IMG/VR virus record: IMGVR_UViG_3300020595_000245
Location: 1-20,040 of that record
Length of the DNA: 20,040 nt
Strand: one strand, 5' to 3'
Origin: a virus
Shown: in pieces, positions 1,426 through 13,199 of the stretch
How positions within the stretch are numbered: position 1 is the stretch's first letter
Layout: every line of letters begins with the position of its first letter
Position numbers and translations under genes: made by a program
Notes under the pieces: generated by a model
Told to the model about the DNA's origin: nothing
Seen by the model: only the letters and a program-made list of their open reading frames with translations
Databases searched by the model: none

Positions 1426-1601
1426 TATCGTTTGTATTTATTCATTGTGTCAACTAAGGCTTGTGAACCAATATATGCTACAGCAATGTATGTCCAATCA
1501 CCTGAAGTAAGTGAACCAAATATTGCTAATAAAGTAGCTATAGAAAATACTATAAACTTTCTACTTGCCCATTTACCTAAAAATCTGTCTATTATTCCCA
1601 T
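1425..1601 (-). CDS. Small two-helix membrane protein, holin-like
   Basis: A 58-residue ORF, MGIIDRFLGKWASRKF... to ...DTMNKYKR, that fills the space between the protease and the next small gene exactly. Its ATG shares one base with the protease stop (1599-1603) and its stop shares one base with the next ATG. It has a basic N-terminus, a hydrophobic segment at about 17-33 (IVFSIATLLAIFGSL), a second weaker one at about 38-50 (YIAVAYIGSQALV), and a basic tail. Such small two-helix proteins with charged ends are often phage holins, but this one sits in the head module rather than beside a lysin, so a head or membrane role is equally possible. The gene is short and easily missed by length cut-offs. 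Confidence 0.72.
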   Translation of the reverse strand: MGIIDRFLGKWASRKFIVFSIATLLAIFGSLTSGDWTYIAVAYIGSQALVDTMNKYKR

Positions 1602-3364
1602 TATACTAGTTTTGTTAGTTTATTTACAAAATATCCTTCTACAGATACACCTTTTACTTTACCTTGCTTGATGTAATCATTCCAAAAGTCATCATTGTCG
1701 ATTTTGAATAAGCCAAACCAGGTTCCTTTTGGTAAATCATAACCAAACACATTAGATTTATCTGTTTTAGGTTCATTGATTAACCAGCTTTCTGCTACAT
1801 AAATACCATCAACCATAGAATCCATATCGTGTTCTAAGTTGATATTATCAGCGTTTTTACTTTTAGCAAATGCGTATGCTATTTTTTTAATAGTATCCTC
1901 TGTAAAATATACGTAATACTTTTCTCCATCCTCATCTCTACGTTCTATAAGTTTATTTGGAACCATAATAGGTGTAGCAACGATTTGTTGTTCATCCATT
2001 TGTTCCTGAGAGAATGATAATCTACCATCAGCTAACAGATTAGTTAATGTATCGTTATTTAATGAAGTAGCATCAGCACGTCTATCTAATACAGCACTTG
2101 GACGTTTTCTATCACTTGCTTTATCCTTTCTAGGTATAATAAATGCTTGCCAGAAATGTTGGCAGTTTTTACCTCCTTTATAAGTGAAAATATCATAGAA
2201 ACGTTGTCCTTGTAAACCGAATCCTTCATTAGCACCCTGAATAGTAAGTTTGTTGATGTCTTCCTTACGGAACCATTTACCTGCTTTAATAACGTTTTGA
2301 CAAAATGTTCTACTATTATTACCTACAGATTCTGTGCCATCGTATCGAGTGTATCTATATAATACTTTCCATTGTCCATAATCATCAACAGATGGTTGAT
2401 TTTCCTTACTAGCACCTTTTATTTGTCCTACAGAAGCAACAAATGTGTCAAAGTTAAAATCCGCGTCTAAACGCACTGCCTTTTTTAAGTCATAGCCCTC
2501 GGTGCTTAAATCTTCTTCATCGATACCTACGTTTAATAACGCGTCTAAAACGACATCCTTTAGCTTATCCTCTAAGTCAGTAATGTAATCATCTGCTGAA
2601 AATAGTTCATCGTGTGAACCACAAGGCATATAATATGTTTTACCAGCAACCTTATATTCGTGCCAGCTATCCATTGAACATCCATATTTAGGAGATTGTG
2701 CCCTTGCTTCCTCTGCTGTTGTATAATAAGGCATTCTATCAGGTGTTAAACCTACTCTAGCCATTTCCTGCTTGATTAACTCCTCTATAATAACAGATTC
2801 TAAGTTAGTTTCAGGAACGCAGTTAGGAACTTTACGTCCGTTTTTAGTTTTTAATCCTATTGCTTTATAGCCTGGTTGGCAAGCATCATCTAAATCAAAA
2901 CCGATTTCATTTTCAGTAGATAACTCCTCACCTGCTTGACGTAGTTTTTTCTCACTCCAAGGTAATGCTTCAGCACCACCCCATAGTAAATAACTAATGT
3001 AGCCACAGGCAGAATAGTCTTTCCTTTCTAATGCTAACTCATAGTTGTCCTTTTGTCTCAATAAAAACGAACGCATACGACGGATTGTATCTAATGATAG
3101 ATTTTCTCCGTTAGCAAGTTGTTGGGCACGAACTTTACCTACCTGAGTAGCACATTTATTGCCGTTTTCCTTGTTTAACTCGATTCCACGTTTAGCATTA
3201 GCGATTGCTTTTTTAGGATAGTCATTGTATGTTTCAAACTCCTCCTTATTAAATGCTAAAAAGTCTATTTCAATAGCTGGATTTTCTACGAATGCGATAG
3301 CATCTACACCATCTAGTAATCCATCCTCGATTTCGAGTTTTACTATTTTAGGTTGCTTTGTCAT
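1601..3364 (-). CDS. Multi-module prohead protease, XkdF-like C-terminal domain
   Basis: A 587-residue mosaic. Residues 12-38 (EDGLLDGVDAIAFVENPAIE) match the usual N-terminus of XkdF-type proteins. Residues 49-145 are a helical module around KCATQVGKVRAQQLANGE and YSACGYISYLLWGG. Two short cysteine modules follow: CQPGYKAIG to VPNCVP (162-184) and YGCS...YYMPCGSHDE (227-253). Residues 335-405 (YRYTR, FCQNVI, WFRKEDINKL, YKGGKNCQHFW) resemble modules I have seen at the ends of MuF and protease proteins. The XkdF-like domain is at about 461-580, with NLEHD (H512) and VKGVSVEGYF (S574) as candidate catalytic residues. It would process scaffold and capsid during head assembly. The start at 3364 overlaps the tape-measure stop as ATGA. 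Protease assignment is from domain recognition; catalysis is inferred. Confidence 0.72.
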   Translation of the reverse strand: MTKQPKIVKLEIEDGLLDGVDAIAFVENPAIEIDFLAFNKEEFETYNDYPKKAIANAKRGIELNKENGNKCATQVGKVRAQQLANGENLSLDTIRRMRSFLLRQKDNYELALERKDYSACGYISYLLWGGAEALPWSEKKLRQAGEELSTENEIGFDLDDACQPGYKAIGLKTKNGRKVPNCVPETNLESVIIEELIKQEMARVGLTPDRMPYYTTAEEARAQSPKYGCSMDSWHEYKVAGKTYYMPCGSHDELFSADDYITDLEDKLKDVVLDALLNVGIDEEDLSTEGYDLKKAVRLDADFNFDTFVASVGQIKGASKENQPSVDDYGQWKVLYRYTRYDGTESVGNNSRTFCQNVIKAGKWFRKEDINKLTIQGANEGFGLQGQRFYDIFTYKGGKNCQHFWQAFIIPRKDKASDRKRPSAVLDRRADATSLNNDTLTNLLADGRLSFSQEQMDEQQIVATPIMVPNKLIERRDEDGEKYYVYFTEDTIKKIAYAFAKSKNADNINLEHDMDSMVDGIYVAESWLINEPKTDKSNVFGYDLPKGTWFGLFKIDNDDFWNDYIKQGKVKGVSVEGYFVNKLTKLV

Positions 3365-5352
3365 AATGTTCTTCTTTGATTGATTTTTCTGTCGGCATCA
3401 ACGCTACTAACTACATCGCCAGCAAGCACGTATGCTTTTACAGCACCTCCTTGTTGTCCGTTTTGTGATTGTCCTGTATTACCTCCTGTTGTTTGTCCTT
3501 CACCTAATGATGGGGCACCTAAAGCACCGAAACCACCTCCTGATGTCATAGTTCCAGCACCAAATCCTCCACTACCACCACTTGATGTTCCACCTATACT
3601 TCCACCACCACTACCAGCACTTTCAAATGTAGTTGATTGGATTTTTTTAAGGTTTGCTAATGCGAAGGCACCTGCTAAACCTGCTTGAATATATGGATAA
3701 GCTGGGAATATAGCTGTTAATGGAGAAGCATTTGCTGTGCTAAACGCATTTTGAACCGCTAAAATACCATTCATTGTTGCTTGTGCTAGTTGGGCACCTT
3801 TAGCGATTTGAAACGCTTTTTTCTGTCGTTTCTCATCCTCACCCGCAAAGGCATCTGCTAACGCAATAACCGCGTTAAACCCGTCGTTTGCTAGCTGTAT
3901 TTTAGCATCACGTAAATCAGCTTCATCTTGTGCTTTCTGTTCGTTGATTGCTGTTTCCTCATCAGCTAATGCTTTGGCATTTTCTGCTGTAGCATCATTA
4001 TATTGTTCCTGAAGTATTAACGCTTCATTAGCATATTTTTCCTTAATAGCTAGTTTAGCTTGTTCTGTTAAATCCTCTTGTTCTAACTCCTTAGTTTGTT
4101 GTTCCTGAAGTCTAAGTAAATCATTAGCAAACCTAACATCTAAAGCATCTTGGGCATCCTTAGCTTGTGCTTCTGCTAACTTACGTCTCGATTCAGCACG
4201 TGCTTCTAATGCGGATAACTCATTTGCTGTTTCCTTATCTAGTTGTGCTTGTCTCTCAGTTCGTGCTTTTTCATCAATATCATCTATTTGATTATTGTAT
4301 TGGGCACGTTTATTTTTTAACGTTAATAACGTTTTTTCTATCTCAGCTGTTCCTTCATCTAACTCTGTTGTATCACCTGAGAATATAGATTGACTAATAG
4401 AATCATTTAAGTCCAATACAGCTTGATTTAGTCCAAAATCCTTACCAAATGCTTTACCTAACTTATCTACACCCATTAATAATAAACGTAATGGTGCTGT
4501 TAAAAAGTTTAGAATACCTGATAATATGGTTTGGTTTCTCTCTGCTGTAGCTATTTGTTCCTTTTTAATCTCCTCTTGTGCTACAAGCTGTGCTTCTAAA
4601 CCATTAATAACCTCATTTGTTTGAGATATTTTGATTGCTAGAATCTCCTTATCTGTTTTACCTTGACGTTTTAATACATCGGTAGATGCTTCTGTTGCCT
4701 CTAATGCTAGTTGTGCTTGATTAGTTTGTTCCTTAGCAATATCTAAGTTGGCTTGTCCTGCTGAAGCACCTAATCCTAATACACCAATGAACTTCTCCCA
4801 GTTAGCAATCAATAAACCTACAGCAACTACTAAAGCACCAATACCAGTTGCTATTAAGGCACCTTTTAATGCTGTAGCACCTCTAACACCTGAAGCAAAT
4901 GCTAGTTTGAATGATTTACCTAAGTTAATATTTGAGTTAGCAAGTAGTTTTTGTGTCGCAACTATACCATTACTAGCATCTCTTAAACCTGATACTACAC
5001 CAATAACACCTAACAACTTACGTTCAGCATCCTCTATAGCCTCACTTGAAGCACCAAAAGCAATAAATCCAGCTGATACAGCACCTACGGCACCAGTTAA
5101 GCCTGTAAACGCATCTACTAATGCTGTAGCACGTTGTTCCTTATCTAAACCTTCGATTTGTAGTTCGAAATCCTTTAGTTTACCACGTGATGAGGCTACT
5201 TGCTTAGATAGTTCCTTAAACTCTTGACTACCAATATCAGCGGTTTTGAGTTGGGACTCTAATGTAGAGATACCTTCCTCTAAATCATTAATGTTGTTGA
5301 TTGCTGTATCAACCCCATTTATTTTTATACTATATACTTTTTCCTGTGCCAT
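3361..5352 (-). CDS. Tail tape measure protein
   Basis: 663 residues, begins MAQEKVYSIKINGVDTAI. The N-terminal region is helical with coiled-coil character (about 22-75). Two hydrophobic stretches follow, at about 85-105 and 160-183 (ALIATGIGALVVAVGLLIAN), then long Ala/Glu/Gln-rich coiled coil (about 340-505), a second hydrophobic patch and a Gly/Ser-rich linker (about 577-645). The C-terminus VKAYVLAGDVVSSVDADRKI followed by NQRRTL is one I associate with tape measures of Bacteroidota phages. The tape measure sets tail length and is threaded in the tail tube. At roughly 1.5 angstrom per residue the tail would be near 100 nm, within the siphovirus range. The start is coupled to the upstream gene by TAATG at 5350-5354. 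Proline-rich frames on the opposite strand are shadows of the glycine-rich segment. Confidence 0.87.
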   Translation of the reverse strand: MAQEKVYSIKINGVDTAINNINDLEEGISTLESQLKTADIGSQEFKELSKQVASSRGKLKDFELQIEGLDKEQRATALVDAFTGLTGAVGAVSAGFIAFGASSEAIEDAERKLLGVIGVVSGLRDASNGIVATQKLLANSNINLGKSFKLAFASGVRGATALKGALIATGIGALVVAVGLLIANWEKFIGVLGLGASAGQANLDIAKEQTNQAQLALEATEASTDVLKRQGKTDKEILAIKISQTNEVINGLEAQLVAQEEIKKEQIATAERNQTILSGILNFLTAPLRLLLMGVDKLGKAFGKDFGLNQAVLDLNDSISQSIFSGDTTELDEGTAEIEKTLLTLKNKRAQYNNQIDDIDEKARTERQAQLDKETANELSALEARAESRRKLAEAQAKDAQDALDVRFANDLLRLQEQQTKELEQEDLTEQAKLAIKEKYANEALILQEQYNDATAENAKALADEETAINEQKAQDEADLRDAKIQLANDGFNAVIALADAFAGEDEKRQKKAFQIAKGAQLAQATMNGILAVQNAFSTANASPLTAIFPAYPYIQAGLAGAFALANLKKIQSTTFESAGSGGGSIGGTSSGGSGGFGAGTMTSGGGFGALGAPSLGEGQTTGGNTGQSQNGQQGGAVKAYVLAGDVVSSVDADRKINQRRTL

Positions 5353-10710: not shown

Positions 10711-10955
10711 TACTTACTATTTAATACTTCTTTAATGTATTGTGAGTGAATACGTAGCATAGATGCTACCTGATTTACACTATATGTTGCTGATAATGCT
10801 TTTACTCTATTACGTAGTTCAACCTCATCGTATGAGAATGATTTACACGCCTTACATTCAACCGATTTTATCTGTTTTTTCTGCGGTTTTGAAGCGATTT
10901 TACCGCTTGTTCCTGATGAACCGCTGGTTCCGTTGCTTATAGTATTTTCTGCCAT
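10710..10955 (-). CDS. Small Cys-containing protein, unknown function
   Basis: 81 residues. The N-terminus is a low-complexity NGTSGSSGTSGK linker, followed by a basic segment KPQKKQIKS, a single CxxC motif (VECKACKSF) and a C-terminal helical part with VNQVASMLRIHSQYIKEVL that could be a small helix-turn-helix or protein-binding helix pair. A lone CxxC might form half of a metal site in a dimer. I do not recognise the family. It lies between the tail assembly chaperone and the tail terminator-like gene. Its start is 8 nt after the end of the -1 frame of the chaperone, and its stop overlaps the next ATG. Confidence 0.62.
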   Translation of the reverse strand: MAENTISNGTSGSSGTSGKIASKPQKKQIKSVECKACKSFSYDEVELRNRVKALSATYSVNQVASMLRIHSQYIKEVLNSK

Positions 10956-10963
10956 AATATACG

Positions 10964-11254
10964 TTATTTTATTTTGTTTTGATTCATTGCTTGTTTCTGT
11001 CGTTTTATTTTCTCTTCTGTCTCATCCCTTAACATCGACATATAGTTCATTACAAATACTATATTTAGAGAGAGAAGGTTGTTCTCGCCCCCGATTTGAA
11101 GGATGGGAGTTTTTCCCAACTCATATAGCGTGTATAACCACCCATAATGTTCTTGTATTGTGATATCTCGTTCCTCATCAACTTCTGTCTCATCAGTTTC
11201 GACATTTGGGCTGTAGAGGTTAGGGAATCTAGCGACGATAGATTGCCTACCCCT
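10964..11254 (-). CDS. -1 frame extension of the tail assembly chaperone (GT-like)
   Basis: Starting right after the slippery heptamer, the -1 frame is open for 96 codons to a TAA at 10964-10966. It has no convincing start of its own near the beginning, and two adjacent TGA codons close this frame a short way upstream of the slip site. The peptide begins RGRQSIVARFPNLY, has an acidic stretch (ETDETEVDEERD), then HYGWLYTLYELGK, NNLLSLNIVFVMNYMSMLRD and a basic end KRQKQAMNQNKIK. It looks like a folded helical protein rather than chance sequence. A slip would yield a fusion of about 284 residues versus 250 in frame zero. The frame ends 8 nt before the next gene's ATG, filling what would otherwise be an unexplained gap. 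Confidence 0.7.
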   Translation of the reverse strand, partial: RGRQSIVARFPNLYSPNVETDETEVDEERDITIQEHYGWLYTLYELGKTPILQIGGENNLLSLNIVFVMNYMSMLRDETEEKIKRQKQAMNQNKIK

Positions 11255-11817
11255 AAAAAAAAACTCAATGCCCCTAATGCTACTGAGGCGGGGAACTCAT
11301 CAAACAACTTAGCTTGTTTTTTTCGCAACTCATTGTCGTAGTCCTCCACCTCATAGTAGTCCATTAAGTGTTCGACTTTGTCCTTAGTGAATATTAGTTT
11401 AAGTGATGATTTCACTTTGAACTTCATATTCTTGATTTTATGAGATTTAATAGGACGATACAATATAGAAACCAACTCGGTTAGATTGTTCATTTTGTCC
11501 TTTGCTAAGTTATCTAAATCGATATACTCAGCTAAACTCATTTTGGACATTGGTGTGAAACCATATTGTTGTCCTTCAAACTCTAATATAGGGTAAAACT
11601 CAATATTCTGGGCTTCATCCAATATTGTTCTAATGGTTTTCCATACCGCTGTAATGGTTGGAATATCCCATTTTTTTACCTCATTTATACTTAATCCAGC
11701 CACAGCTGAAATCGTATGTAGCACTTGGAGGTTATCCTCTAAGGAATATACCTTATCCATTGCTTGATACTGCTTTAATGTCAAATAAGCAGGTAAGTTT
11801 AGTTGTATCTCTTTCAT
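11065..11817 (-). CDS. Tail assembly chaperone, zero-frame product
   Basis: 250 residues, MKEIQLNLPAYLTLKQYQAMDKVYSLED at the N-terminus, largely alpha-helical, with a hydrophobic FPASVALGALSFFLGVGN stretch at about 174-191. Position soon after terminase and before other tail genes, the length, and above all a slippery site at codons 186-188 followed by a long open -1 frame point to a G/GT-type tail assembly chaperone, which coats the tape measure during tail tube assembly. The 62 zero-frame codons after the slip (through FKSGARTTFSL) differ in style from the -1 frame and may be only partly functional. No Shine-Dalgarno site is seen; the ATG at 11817 lies after a 118-nt gap behind terL. The family itself is too divergent for me to name with certainty. 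Confidence 0.68.
   Translation of the reverse strand: MKEIQLNLPAYLTLKQYQAMDKVYSLEDNLQVLHTISAVAGLSINEVKKWDIPTITAVWKTIRTILDEAQNIEFYPILEFEGQQYGFTPMSKMSLAEYIDLDNLAKDKMNNLTELVSILYRPIKSHKIKNMKFKVKSSLKLIFTKDKVEHLMDYYEVEDYDNELRKKQAKLFDEFPASVALGALSFFLGVGNLSSLDSLTSTAQMSKLMRQKLMRNEISQYKNIMGGYTRYMSWEKLPSFKSGARTTFSL
11217..11263 (-). promoter_or_regulatory. Programmed -1 ribosomal frameshift site: slippery U UUU UUA plus stem-loop
   Basis: On the minus strand nine T's (11263-11255) followed by A read AGT TTT TTT TTA GGG in the gene frame, so the heptamer T TTT TTA is in register for a -1 slip. After a 5-nt spacer (GGGGT) comes a stem: AGG-C-AATCTA (11248-11239) pairs with TAGATT-C-CCT (11231-11222) around a 7-nt loop, one C/C mismatch, with possible extension by the flanking GGG and CCT. 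This is the standard layout of a stimulated -1 frameshift signal. A homopolymer sequencing error is the main alternative. Confidence 0.72.
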
Positions 11818-11913: not shown

Positions 11914-11944
11914 TAGCCCGACGTTTCTGTTGGGCTATTTTTTT
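11914..11944 (+). terminator. Intrinsic terminator facing the plus direction behind terL
   Basis: TAGCCCGAC (11914-11922) pairs with GTTGGGCTA (11929-11937) around a 6-nt loop, followed by seven T's (11938-11944). One pair is G-U in a plus-strand RNA; on the minus strand the same position is an A/C mismatch and the 3' flank is only ACCTTTTG, so the plus direction is favoured. All adjacent genes are on the minus strand, so it either stops antisense transcripts or ends a small plus-strand RNA. It may also act weakly behind terL. The T-run overlaps the terL stop codon. Confidence 0.6.
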
Positions 11945-13199
11945 ACCCCCATTGTGGATTTAAGTTATTATTTGTCATTCCTATTTTAATGGCATTCAAA
12001 CCACTACTTTTTATTTTATTTCTACTTAAGTTAGCTAACCATAAGGCATCTACACAATCATCATTTACCCCATTAGGGTGTGAGAATGATATTTTACCAT
12101 TAGCTGAATATTTGTAGGTAAAAGCACTTAGTTCATTATATAGATGAGGGAAAAACTCCTTAGTTGGAATCTCAATCACACCAGCATCCATATCTGTCAT
12201 CAACGTTCTAATAGCATTCATTTTACTATCCTGCGTTGATATAAACGGCATAGTTATTCTAATGTGTTTACGTATTAGTTCAAACATAGCCTTACCAATC
12301 CCATTTGTCTCAACAAGACATCCTTGAACGGAGTAGCGTTTGAGTGTCGCAATATATCTGTTCGCAATGTTCTCAAGTGTATCATTGTTAGTTCTGTCAA
12401 TAAAAACAACCCTCCCTGATTCATCGATGATTGTGAGAACTGAATAGTCGCTTGATAATCCTGTATCAATGCCAGCAAAATATCTATTTCCTCTATTAGG
12501 TTGTGTCCATTCATATATTATAGCATTTTTATCTATACTCTGGAATACATCATTAGTGCTGTCTGTAAACTCAGCTTCATACTCACTCCTAAATACATCT
12601 ATTGGTAATGATTTACGTGCTTCCTCTATTAACTCAGGTTTAACATAAGGGCAAGCCTCTAATGGAATACGATATGATATATAATCGTTATTACCCTCTT
12701 GTCCACGTAAGTAATATTCATAGAAATGATTTTTACCTCGTGGTGTAGATATCATTAAACATTTTTTACCATTAGGGTTTAATGTCGGTAGTATTGCTTT
12801 CTCTATTGTTTCCTTATTTAGGTAAGCTACCTCATCTAATATCAAGTAATGAAAACGGAATCCCCTAACTGAATCTGCCCTATCGGCTGATAGAAACTTG
12901 ATGCTACTACCATTAATAAACTTGATTGTTAAATCTGCTTTATTGCTTGACTCAATCAAATCGTGTGTTTTGCTTTGTATTATCTCAAATACTTCCTTTC
13001 CCAAAGCAAATATGGGAGTGATATAACCTAACTTACTATCATTATTACGTAATGCCCAAAATAATAGCATATTAATACCTAATAATGTTTTACCAGCACC
13101 ACGTGGCGATACTAATACACCGAATAAATGCGGGGAATCAGCGTATAAATCGATGAACTCCCTTTGTGCGGTATATGGTTTGAATAGGTTTACTTTCAT
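11943..13199 (-). CDS. terL: Terminase large subunit (ATPase/nuclease)
   Basis: 418 residues, full length. ATPase domain: Walker A SPRGAGKT at 31-38, Walker B LILDE with D122 and E123, coupling motif STPRGK at 151-156. Nuclease domain of RNase H fold: GIDTGLSSDYS with D245, LVETNG with E297, and NDDCVDALW with D380/D381 and D384 as the third acidic cluster. All key residues are present, so it should be an active packaging motor that pumps DNA into the prohead and cuts the concatemer. The start at 13199 follows the small-subunit stop by 3 nt. An intrinsic hairpin lies at its 3' end. A portal gene would normally follow but does not. Confidence 0.95.
   Translation of the reverse strand: MKVNLFKPYTAQREFIDLYADSPHLFGVLVSPRGAGKTLLGINMLLFWALRNNDSKLGYITPIFALGKEVFEIIQSKTHDLIESSNKADLTIKFINGSSIKFLSADRADSVRGFRFHYLILDEVAYLNKETIEKAILPTLNPNGKKCLMISTPRGKNHFYEYYLRGQEGNNDYISYRIPLEACPYVKPELIEEARKSLPIDVFRSEYEAEFTDSTNDVFQSIDKNAIIYEWTQPNRGNRYFAGIDTGLSSDYSVLTIIDESGRVVFIDRTNNDTLENIANRYIATLKRYSVQGCLVETNGIGKAMFELIRKHIRITMPFISTQDSKMNAIRTLMTDMDAGVIEIPTKEFFPHLYNELSAFTYKYSANGKISFSHPNGVNDDCVDALWLANLSRNKIKSSGLNAIKIGMTNNNLNPQWG

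Follow-up and report, generated by a model that had tools for sequence, protein, structure and literature searches.

A conserved run of nine T residues in a phage tail-module gene as the probable site of a programmed -1 frame change

We analysed a DNA stretch of 20,040 bases (hereafter the window), which constitutes one IMG/VR virus record and stems from a marine phage, probably a flavobacterial one. A gene on its minus strand contains a run of nine T residues (T9) at which a zero-frame and a -1-frame coding region overlap, and all relatives with complete sequence at the locus share the run, its position and the -1 frame. Comparison of these sequences makes it very probable (about 0.87) that a programmed -1 frame change at the conserved T-run would yield two proteins from this gene, whichever machine slips. 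The two-product strategy and T-runs in tail genes are already known in phages; the widely conserved and unannotated T9 variant described here is new.

The two reading frames of the gene

The zero-frame ORF (11817-11065, minus strand) encodes 250 amino acids, probably a short G-like tail assembly protein, and has homologues in 200 loci. It contains the sequence AGT TTT TTT TTA GGG (11265-11251, minus strand), in which the T9 run occupies positions 11263-11255. A scan of all 20,040 bases found no other homopolymer of at least eight residues. The run holds an in-register U UUU UUU (11263-11257) and, together with the next base, the U UUU UUA (11260-11254) that the first-pass annotation had pointed out, and whose presence in register on the minus strand we confirmed. 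The N-terminal part common to both products (11257..11817, minus strand) comprises 187 codons and ends in the residues ...LGALSFF; both Phe residues at the slip site are invariant in all 36 aligned members of the family. The extension, a T-like domain of 97 codons plus stop (10964..11257, minus strand), lies in the -1 frame; this frame opens shortly before the run and continues without interruption to its stop at 10966-10964 (98 codons when counted from 11260). Upstream, the -1 frame is shut by TGA TGA 13 codons 5' of T9; 8 nt separate the -1-frame stop from the next gene, which begins at 10955. All of this agrees with the earlier description of an open frame closed on its 5' side and ending just before the next gene. 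The zero-frame tail beyond the slip site (11065..11256, minus strand) is dual-coded with the -1 frame and is kept open in relatives.

Most expression would stop at the zero-frame stop codon and give the 250-residue protein. In a small share of cases, the machinery would move one base back on the U-run, after the second TTT, and continue in the -1 frame, giving a fusion of 187 + 97 = 284 residues with a second helical domain; we infer both the event and its low frequency. The products of about 250 and 284 residues proposed previously thus stand as predictions. The fusion would be recognized by its junction peptide LSFFFRGR (S-F-F-F-R) and by peptides from the extension, for example HYGWLYTLYELGK.

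Conservation of the T-run and of both coding frames

Relatives were collected by protein and terminase searches of IMG/VR, which gave 200 loci, some of them overlapping pieces of the same contigs. Three other IMG/VR records hold near-identical copies, and the next relatives are 67% and 35% identical. All forward frames of the 200 loci were scanned with profiles built from the N-terminal part and from the -1 tail. In 197 loci the C-terminal tail came up in the -1 frame, and no locus had it in the zero or +1 frame; it was missing in three loci whose sequence stops shortly afterwards. When the 197 loci were grouped at 80% amino acid identity of the N-terminal part, 92 clusters resulted, and every one of them has an overlapping -1 extension with a slippery T-run in the overlap, which is the arrangement of the G/GT type. 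Among cultured phages, Nonlabens phages P12024S and P12024L carry T9, in the second of the two registers described below, followed by the -1 tail; the two parts are annotated there as separate hypothetical proteins (gp38 and gp39 in P12024S), with no frameshift annotated. A tblastn search of annotated phages with both parts of the window protein gave no match, two scans of bacterial genomes gave no confirmed relative, and the -1 alignment was too poorly conserved for a pattern search of IMG/VR.

The length of the run is strictly held. Over the 92 clusters it is T9 in 81, T10 in seven, T11 in two, T7 in one (L061) and T6 in one (L112, as TTTTTTC), with no T8; two contigs, L075 and L077, have T7 though they cluster with T9 relatives. 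Synonymous resampling of the zero-frame codons predicted runs of at least nine in 17 clusters and of at least seven in 43, against 90 and 91 observed. None of 152 other Phe-Phe pairs in the same loci contains a run of at least nine. Across 306 kb of coding sequence elsewhere in these loci, T7, T8 and T-runs of at least nine number 10, 2 and 0, where 33, 6 and 2.4 would be expected, and A-runs too are avoided there. The run sits in two main registers, NNT TTT TTT TTR (60 clusters) and NTT TTT TTT TAY (21 clusters), which differ between clades, and the in-register heptamer of the X XXY YYZ form is U UUU UUU in 91 of 92 clusters and U UUU UUC in L112. Among clusters with T9 in the first register, 35 close the run with the Leu codon TTG and 24 with TTA, while TTA is four times commoner than TTG elsewhere in the loci; this excess of TTG is probably set by the residue encoded in the -1 frame.

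Both frames bear the marks of protein-coding sequence. Variation by codon position was computed from 51 pairs of related loci, which are non-independent. Upstream of the run, zero-frame positions 1/2/3 vary at 0.31/0.19/0.48, and in the region read in the -1 frame only, the -1 positions vary at 0.28/0.20/0.44. In the overlap, the values for the -1 positions are 0.29/0.21/0.37, a -1 periodicity with a damped third position, as dual coding predicts. Codon periodicity thus switches from the zero frame to the -1 frame at the run. The zero frame nevertheless stays open past the slip site for 2297 codons summed over loci, against 738 under synonymous resampling of the -1 frame (P <0.05 in 27 of 37 loci). 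These data support the conservation and constraint of both parts at the protein level in the relatives and agree with the earlier proposal that one tail-module gene gives two products through a programmed -1 frame change. What the sequences show directly is the signal, the conservation of two coding frames and the strict position of the run. In three related lineages (L069, L081 and L094) the zero frame runs about 95-100 codons past the run, approximately as far as the -1 frame, so that nearly the whole tail is dual-coded.

The -1 frame could instead be a separate gene, with its own start or with reinitiation at the zero-frame stop. P12024S and P12024L are annotated in this way; the ATG of the second gene there overlaps the stop of the first (TAATG). 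Conservation of the -1 tail, however, begins directly after the T-run, with F..LF and then a near-invariant GW, and an ATG precedes the conserved W in only 5 of 90 clusters (16 when GTG and TTG are counted). The scarcity of a -1-frame ATG indicates that separate initiation is not the route, and we consider this alternative very improbable. Still less credit, to the point of being negligible, is due to the idea that a sequencing or assembly error, or decay of the gene, has broken a single ORF. Homopolymers are error-prone, and distant relatives do encode both parts in a single frame, but a run length shared by 81 of 92 clusters, drawn from many metagenomes, its presence in two cultured phages and a zero-frame tail that is constrained and kept open all argue against it.

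These distant relatives are represented by Flavobacterium phage laban6-1, whose gp17, a hypothetical protein, is a homologue with both parts in one frame. The alignment covers the N-terminal part and the tail alike (hhalign probability 94-96%, E 1e-7 to 2e-9; at most 0.3% in ten shuffles), and the relatives of laban6-1 in Duneviridae, as well as a few other phages, are likewise single-frame. The first-pass annotation had held that single-frame relatives lacking a T-run would speak against a frameshift. Such relatives do exist in this far clade, yet as fused homologues they support the fusion protein instead of refuting it. Flavobacterium phage 6H was considered as a further frameshift case and rejected: a 2-nt insertion in its record relative to phage 2A (L205:1148-1149), at a place with no slippery run, shortens the fused homologue to 191 amino acids as recorded.

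The signal and the slipping machine

In the window, the run is followed by a stem (11248-11222, minus strand) of 9 bp with one C.C mismatch, separated from TTTTTTA by a 5-nt spacer. It had been described before, and we recovered it in the minimum-energy fold, with an energy that is ordinary for its composition (z = -1.23; 22 of 200 shuffles were as good). The first-pass annotation had taken the heptamer, the GGG and the stem together as a striking convergence with HIV-1 gag-pol. If slippage occurred in the HIV-1 manner, the ribosome would respond to U UUU UUA, GGG and a stem-loop as one signal, and the window does have U UUU UUA GGG, the 9-bp stem and the 5-nt spacer. The same stem also occurs in one sister lineage (L010/L051) with a compensatory change of the apex pair from A-U to G-C, and z reaches -4.0 there (45-nt window). 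The wider family, however, does not preserve this signal. The base 3' of the run is A in 45, G in 41 and C in 6 of the 92 clusters, the 21 clusters in the second register have no in-frame TTTTTTA, and the heptamer ends in A, G or C/T; GGG is confined to the lineage of the window, and the stem is common only to the window and the sister lineage. The convergence did not survive the comparison: with base and register varying in this way, the window's U UUU UUA GGG is one instance of the T-run rule, and an HIV-like signal is very improbable. Of the two elements proposed for a conservation check, the T-run is thus kept in relatives and the stem is not, and the latter is best regarded as a candidate lineage-specific stimulator.

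Stimulators are common at -1 ribosomal frameshift sites and are not essential to them. Over the 92 clusters we found no family-wide downstream stem (mean z -0.21 at 45 nt and +0.09 at 60 nt), no upstream hairpin standing out (mean z -0.25), and Shine-Dalgarno-like motifs at a frequency near chance (38 observed, 33.8 expected). Neither a pseudoknot-free 3' structure nor a 5' Shine-Dalgarno-like element is therefore a conserved stimulator in this family. Strong individual stems are seen in two lineages, L068 and L112. In L112 (positions 1220-1300), the lineage with TTTTTTC, a 10-bp outer stem (z about -2.5) begins 3 nt past the heptamer, as though a stimulating structure had taken the place of run length.

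The ribosome was assumed as the slipping machine from the start, and we also place it slightly ahead, at roughly even odds, with tandem tRNA-Phe slippage on U UUU UUU as the presumed step. The T7 lineages (L061; L075 and L077) and the T6C lineage (L112) retain the in-register heptamer and an intact -1 domain. Ribosomal slippage, which needs seven T's, explains these lineages. Known tail-gene frameshifts are ribosomal as well (PMC5009743), and T-runs have their precedent in P2-like phages (PMC3931495). The machine could also be RNA polymerase, which would stutter on T9 and add one U in some of the mRNAs, leading to the same 284-residue fusion; this alternative bears only on which machine slips, and we give it somewhat less than an even chance. 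A coding homopolymer of at least nine A or T is what such slippage requires, and it is present in 90 of 92 clusters, with no T8, despite shifting register and flanks. Elsewhere, these genomes avoid long runs of A or T, and the downstream structure is not conserved. The RNA:DNA hybrid measures 9-10 bp, and efficient slippage in vivo has been reported at nine A or T (PMC5009743, PMC1088944), which T9 matches on both counts. What seems to be a floor of nine T's, two above the ribosomal need, with no conserved stimulator, also fits polymerase slippage.

The intact -1 domain in the T7 and T6C lineages argues against the polymerase, as does the lack of an outstanding upstream hairpin. The two extra T's may, moreover, be held by dual coding, in which the zero frame reads Leu TTR or Tyr TAY and the -1 frame Phe/Leu: in the first register, a Leu codon of the CTN type would change the -1-frame Phe to Ser, so that the protein sequences themselves could keep the run long. 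A tree-based test for compensation between the 5' and 3' run ends had at most five independent changes to work with. The two machines may also both act. It is tempting to speculate, with rather more doubt than confidence, that the host RNA polymerase sets the ratio of the two proteins on the nine-T tract, and that the T7 and T6C-plus-stem lineages are switches to ribosomal frameshifting. Homologous dnaX genes use either ribosomal or transcriptional slippage (PMC5009743). If the polymerase does set the ratio, this family would be a natural parallel to the dnaX alternatives in a large and mostly uncultured phage group.

Protein identity, neighbourhood and known systems

The AlphaFold model of the zero-frame protein is confident, with a mean pLDDT of 86.4, and that of the -1 tail is mostly helical (76.4). 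The window protein matched no named family in Pfam, NCBIfam or PHROGs; one member of the family matched the tail protein PHROG 166 at E 0.003. Foldseek searches of BFVD returned uncharacterised phage proteins, including one of Nonlabens phage P12024S (E 1.4e-8), and a weak match to a protein annotated as a tail assembly chaperone (E 0.018, TM 0.68 over 75 residues). The search of BFVD with the -1 tail model gave nothing below E 0.3, and a fold search of the PDB gave rows at chance level only.

The gene lies in the late module, with its neighbours on the same strand. Its 5' neighbour is the terminase large subunit (11943..13199, minus strand; Pfam PF03237/PF17289, PHROG 2), and the order terminase, then frameshift gene, is also found in relatives and in Nonlabens phage P12024S. 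The genes on its 3' side are probably head-tail completion and tail genes, followed by a probable tape measure gene in the same orientation (3361..5352, minus strand; PHROG 1506 and 24676, E ~1e-5). The latter lies 5.6 kb, or five genes, downstream. The gene therefore does not occupy the position directly upstream of the tape measure gene that is usual, though not strictly defining, for the G/GT type. The fused homologue in the Duneviridae phage Ingeline_1 precedes the tape measure gene by about 1 kb, or two genes. The analogy with lambda G/GT makes a role as a tail assembly chaperone likely. The designation used previously is plausible to that extent, while membership of the chaperones is not established, since there is no tape-measure adjacency and the searches matched no sequence family so named. 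On the same analogy, and on that of P2 E/E', coating the tape measure protein would be the task of the short form, and recruiting the tail tube subunit that of the extension.

In lambda, the slippery heptamer is GGGAAAG, close to the end of G. The gene described here resembles lambda G/GT in having a short protein with a -1 extension, overlapping frames and a place in the tail region; it differs in having about 60 more zero-frame codons after the T-run and in not standing beside the tape measure gene, and no sequence similarity was detected. It shares a T-run slippery site in tail assembly genes with the P2-like E/E' pairs, which use T6G, T7G and T7C (PMC3931495). The P2 runs are shorter, whereas at least nine T's are the rule here, and searches found no relation. 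Transcriptional slippage on about nine A or T is documented in Thermus dnaX, IS elements, and Shigella spa13 and mxiE (PMC5009743, PMC1088944). These genes likewise have a coding homopolymer of about nine and two products, but they are not phage tail genes. The likeness to HIV-1 gag-pol, U UUU UUA GGG and then a stem, belongs to the window's own lineage, and here a bacterial ribosome or polymerase would be at work. The closest counterparts are the homologues themselves, namely gp38-gp39 of Nonlabens phages P12024S/L, with T9 and a -1 tail, and gp17 of the Duneviridae phage laban6-1, fused in one frame.

Tail-gene frameshifts are common, and this family is nevertheless unannotated even in cultured phages, with the consequence that one gene is called as two. 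The strict run length, together with the natural T6, T7, T10 and T11 forms among the 92 lineages, allows one to ask whether the stoichiometry of tail proteins is controlled at the transcript level, and the cultured Nonlabens phages make that question testable.

Two further observations concern the neighbourhood. In one relative (L012:2438-3037), the terminase and the frameshift gene are separated by an ORF that by eye resembles HNH/NUMOD homing endonucleases. Window positions 1601-3364, where the tail module ends, encode a composite protein of 587 amino acids that combines an XkdF-type protease domain (PF14550) with matches to portal and other phage families.
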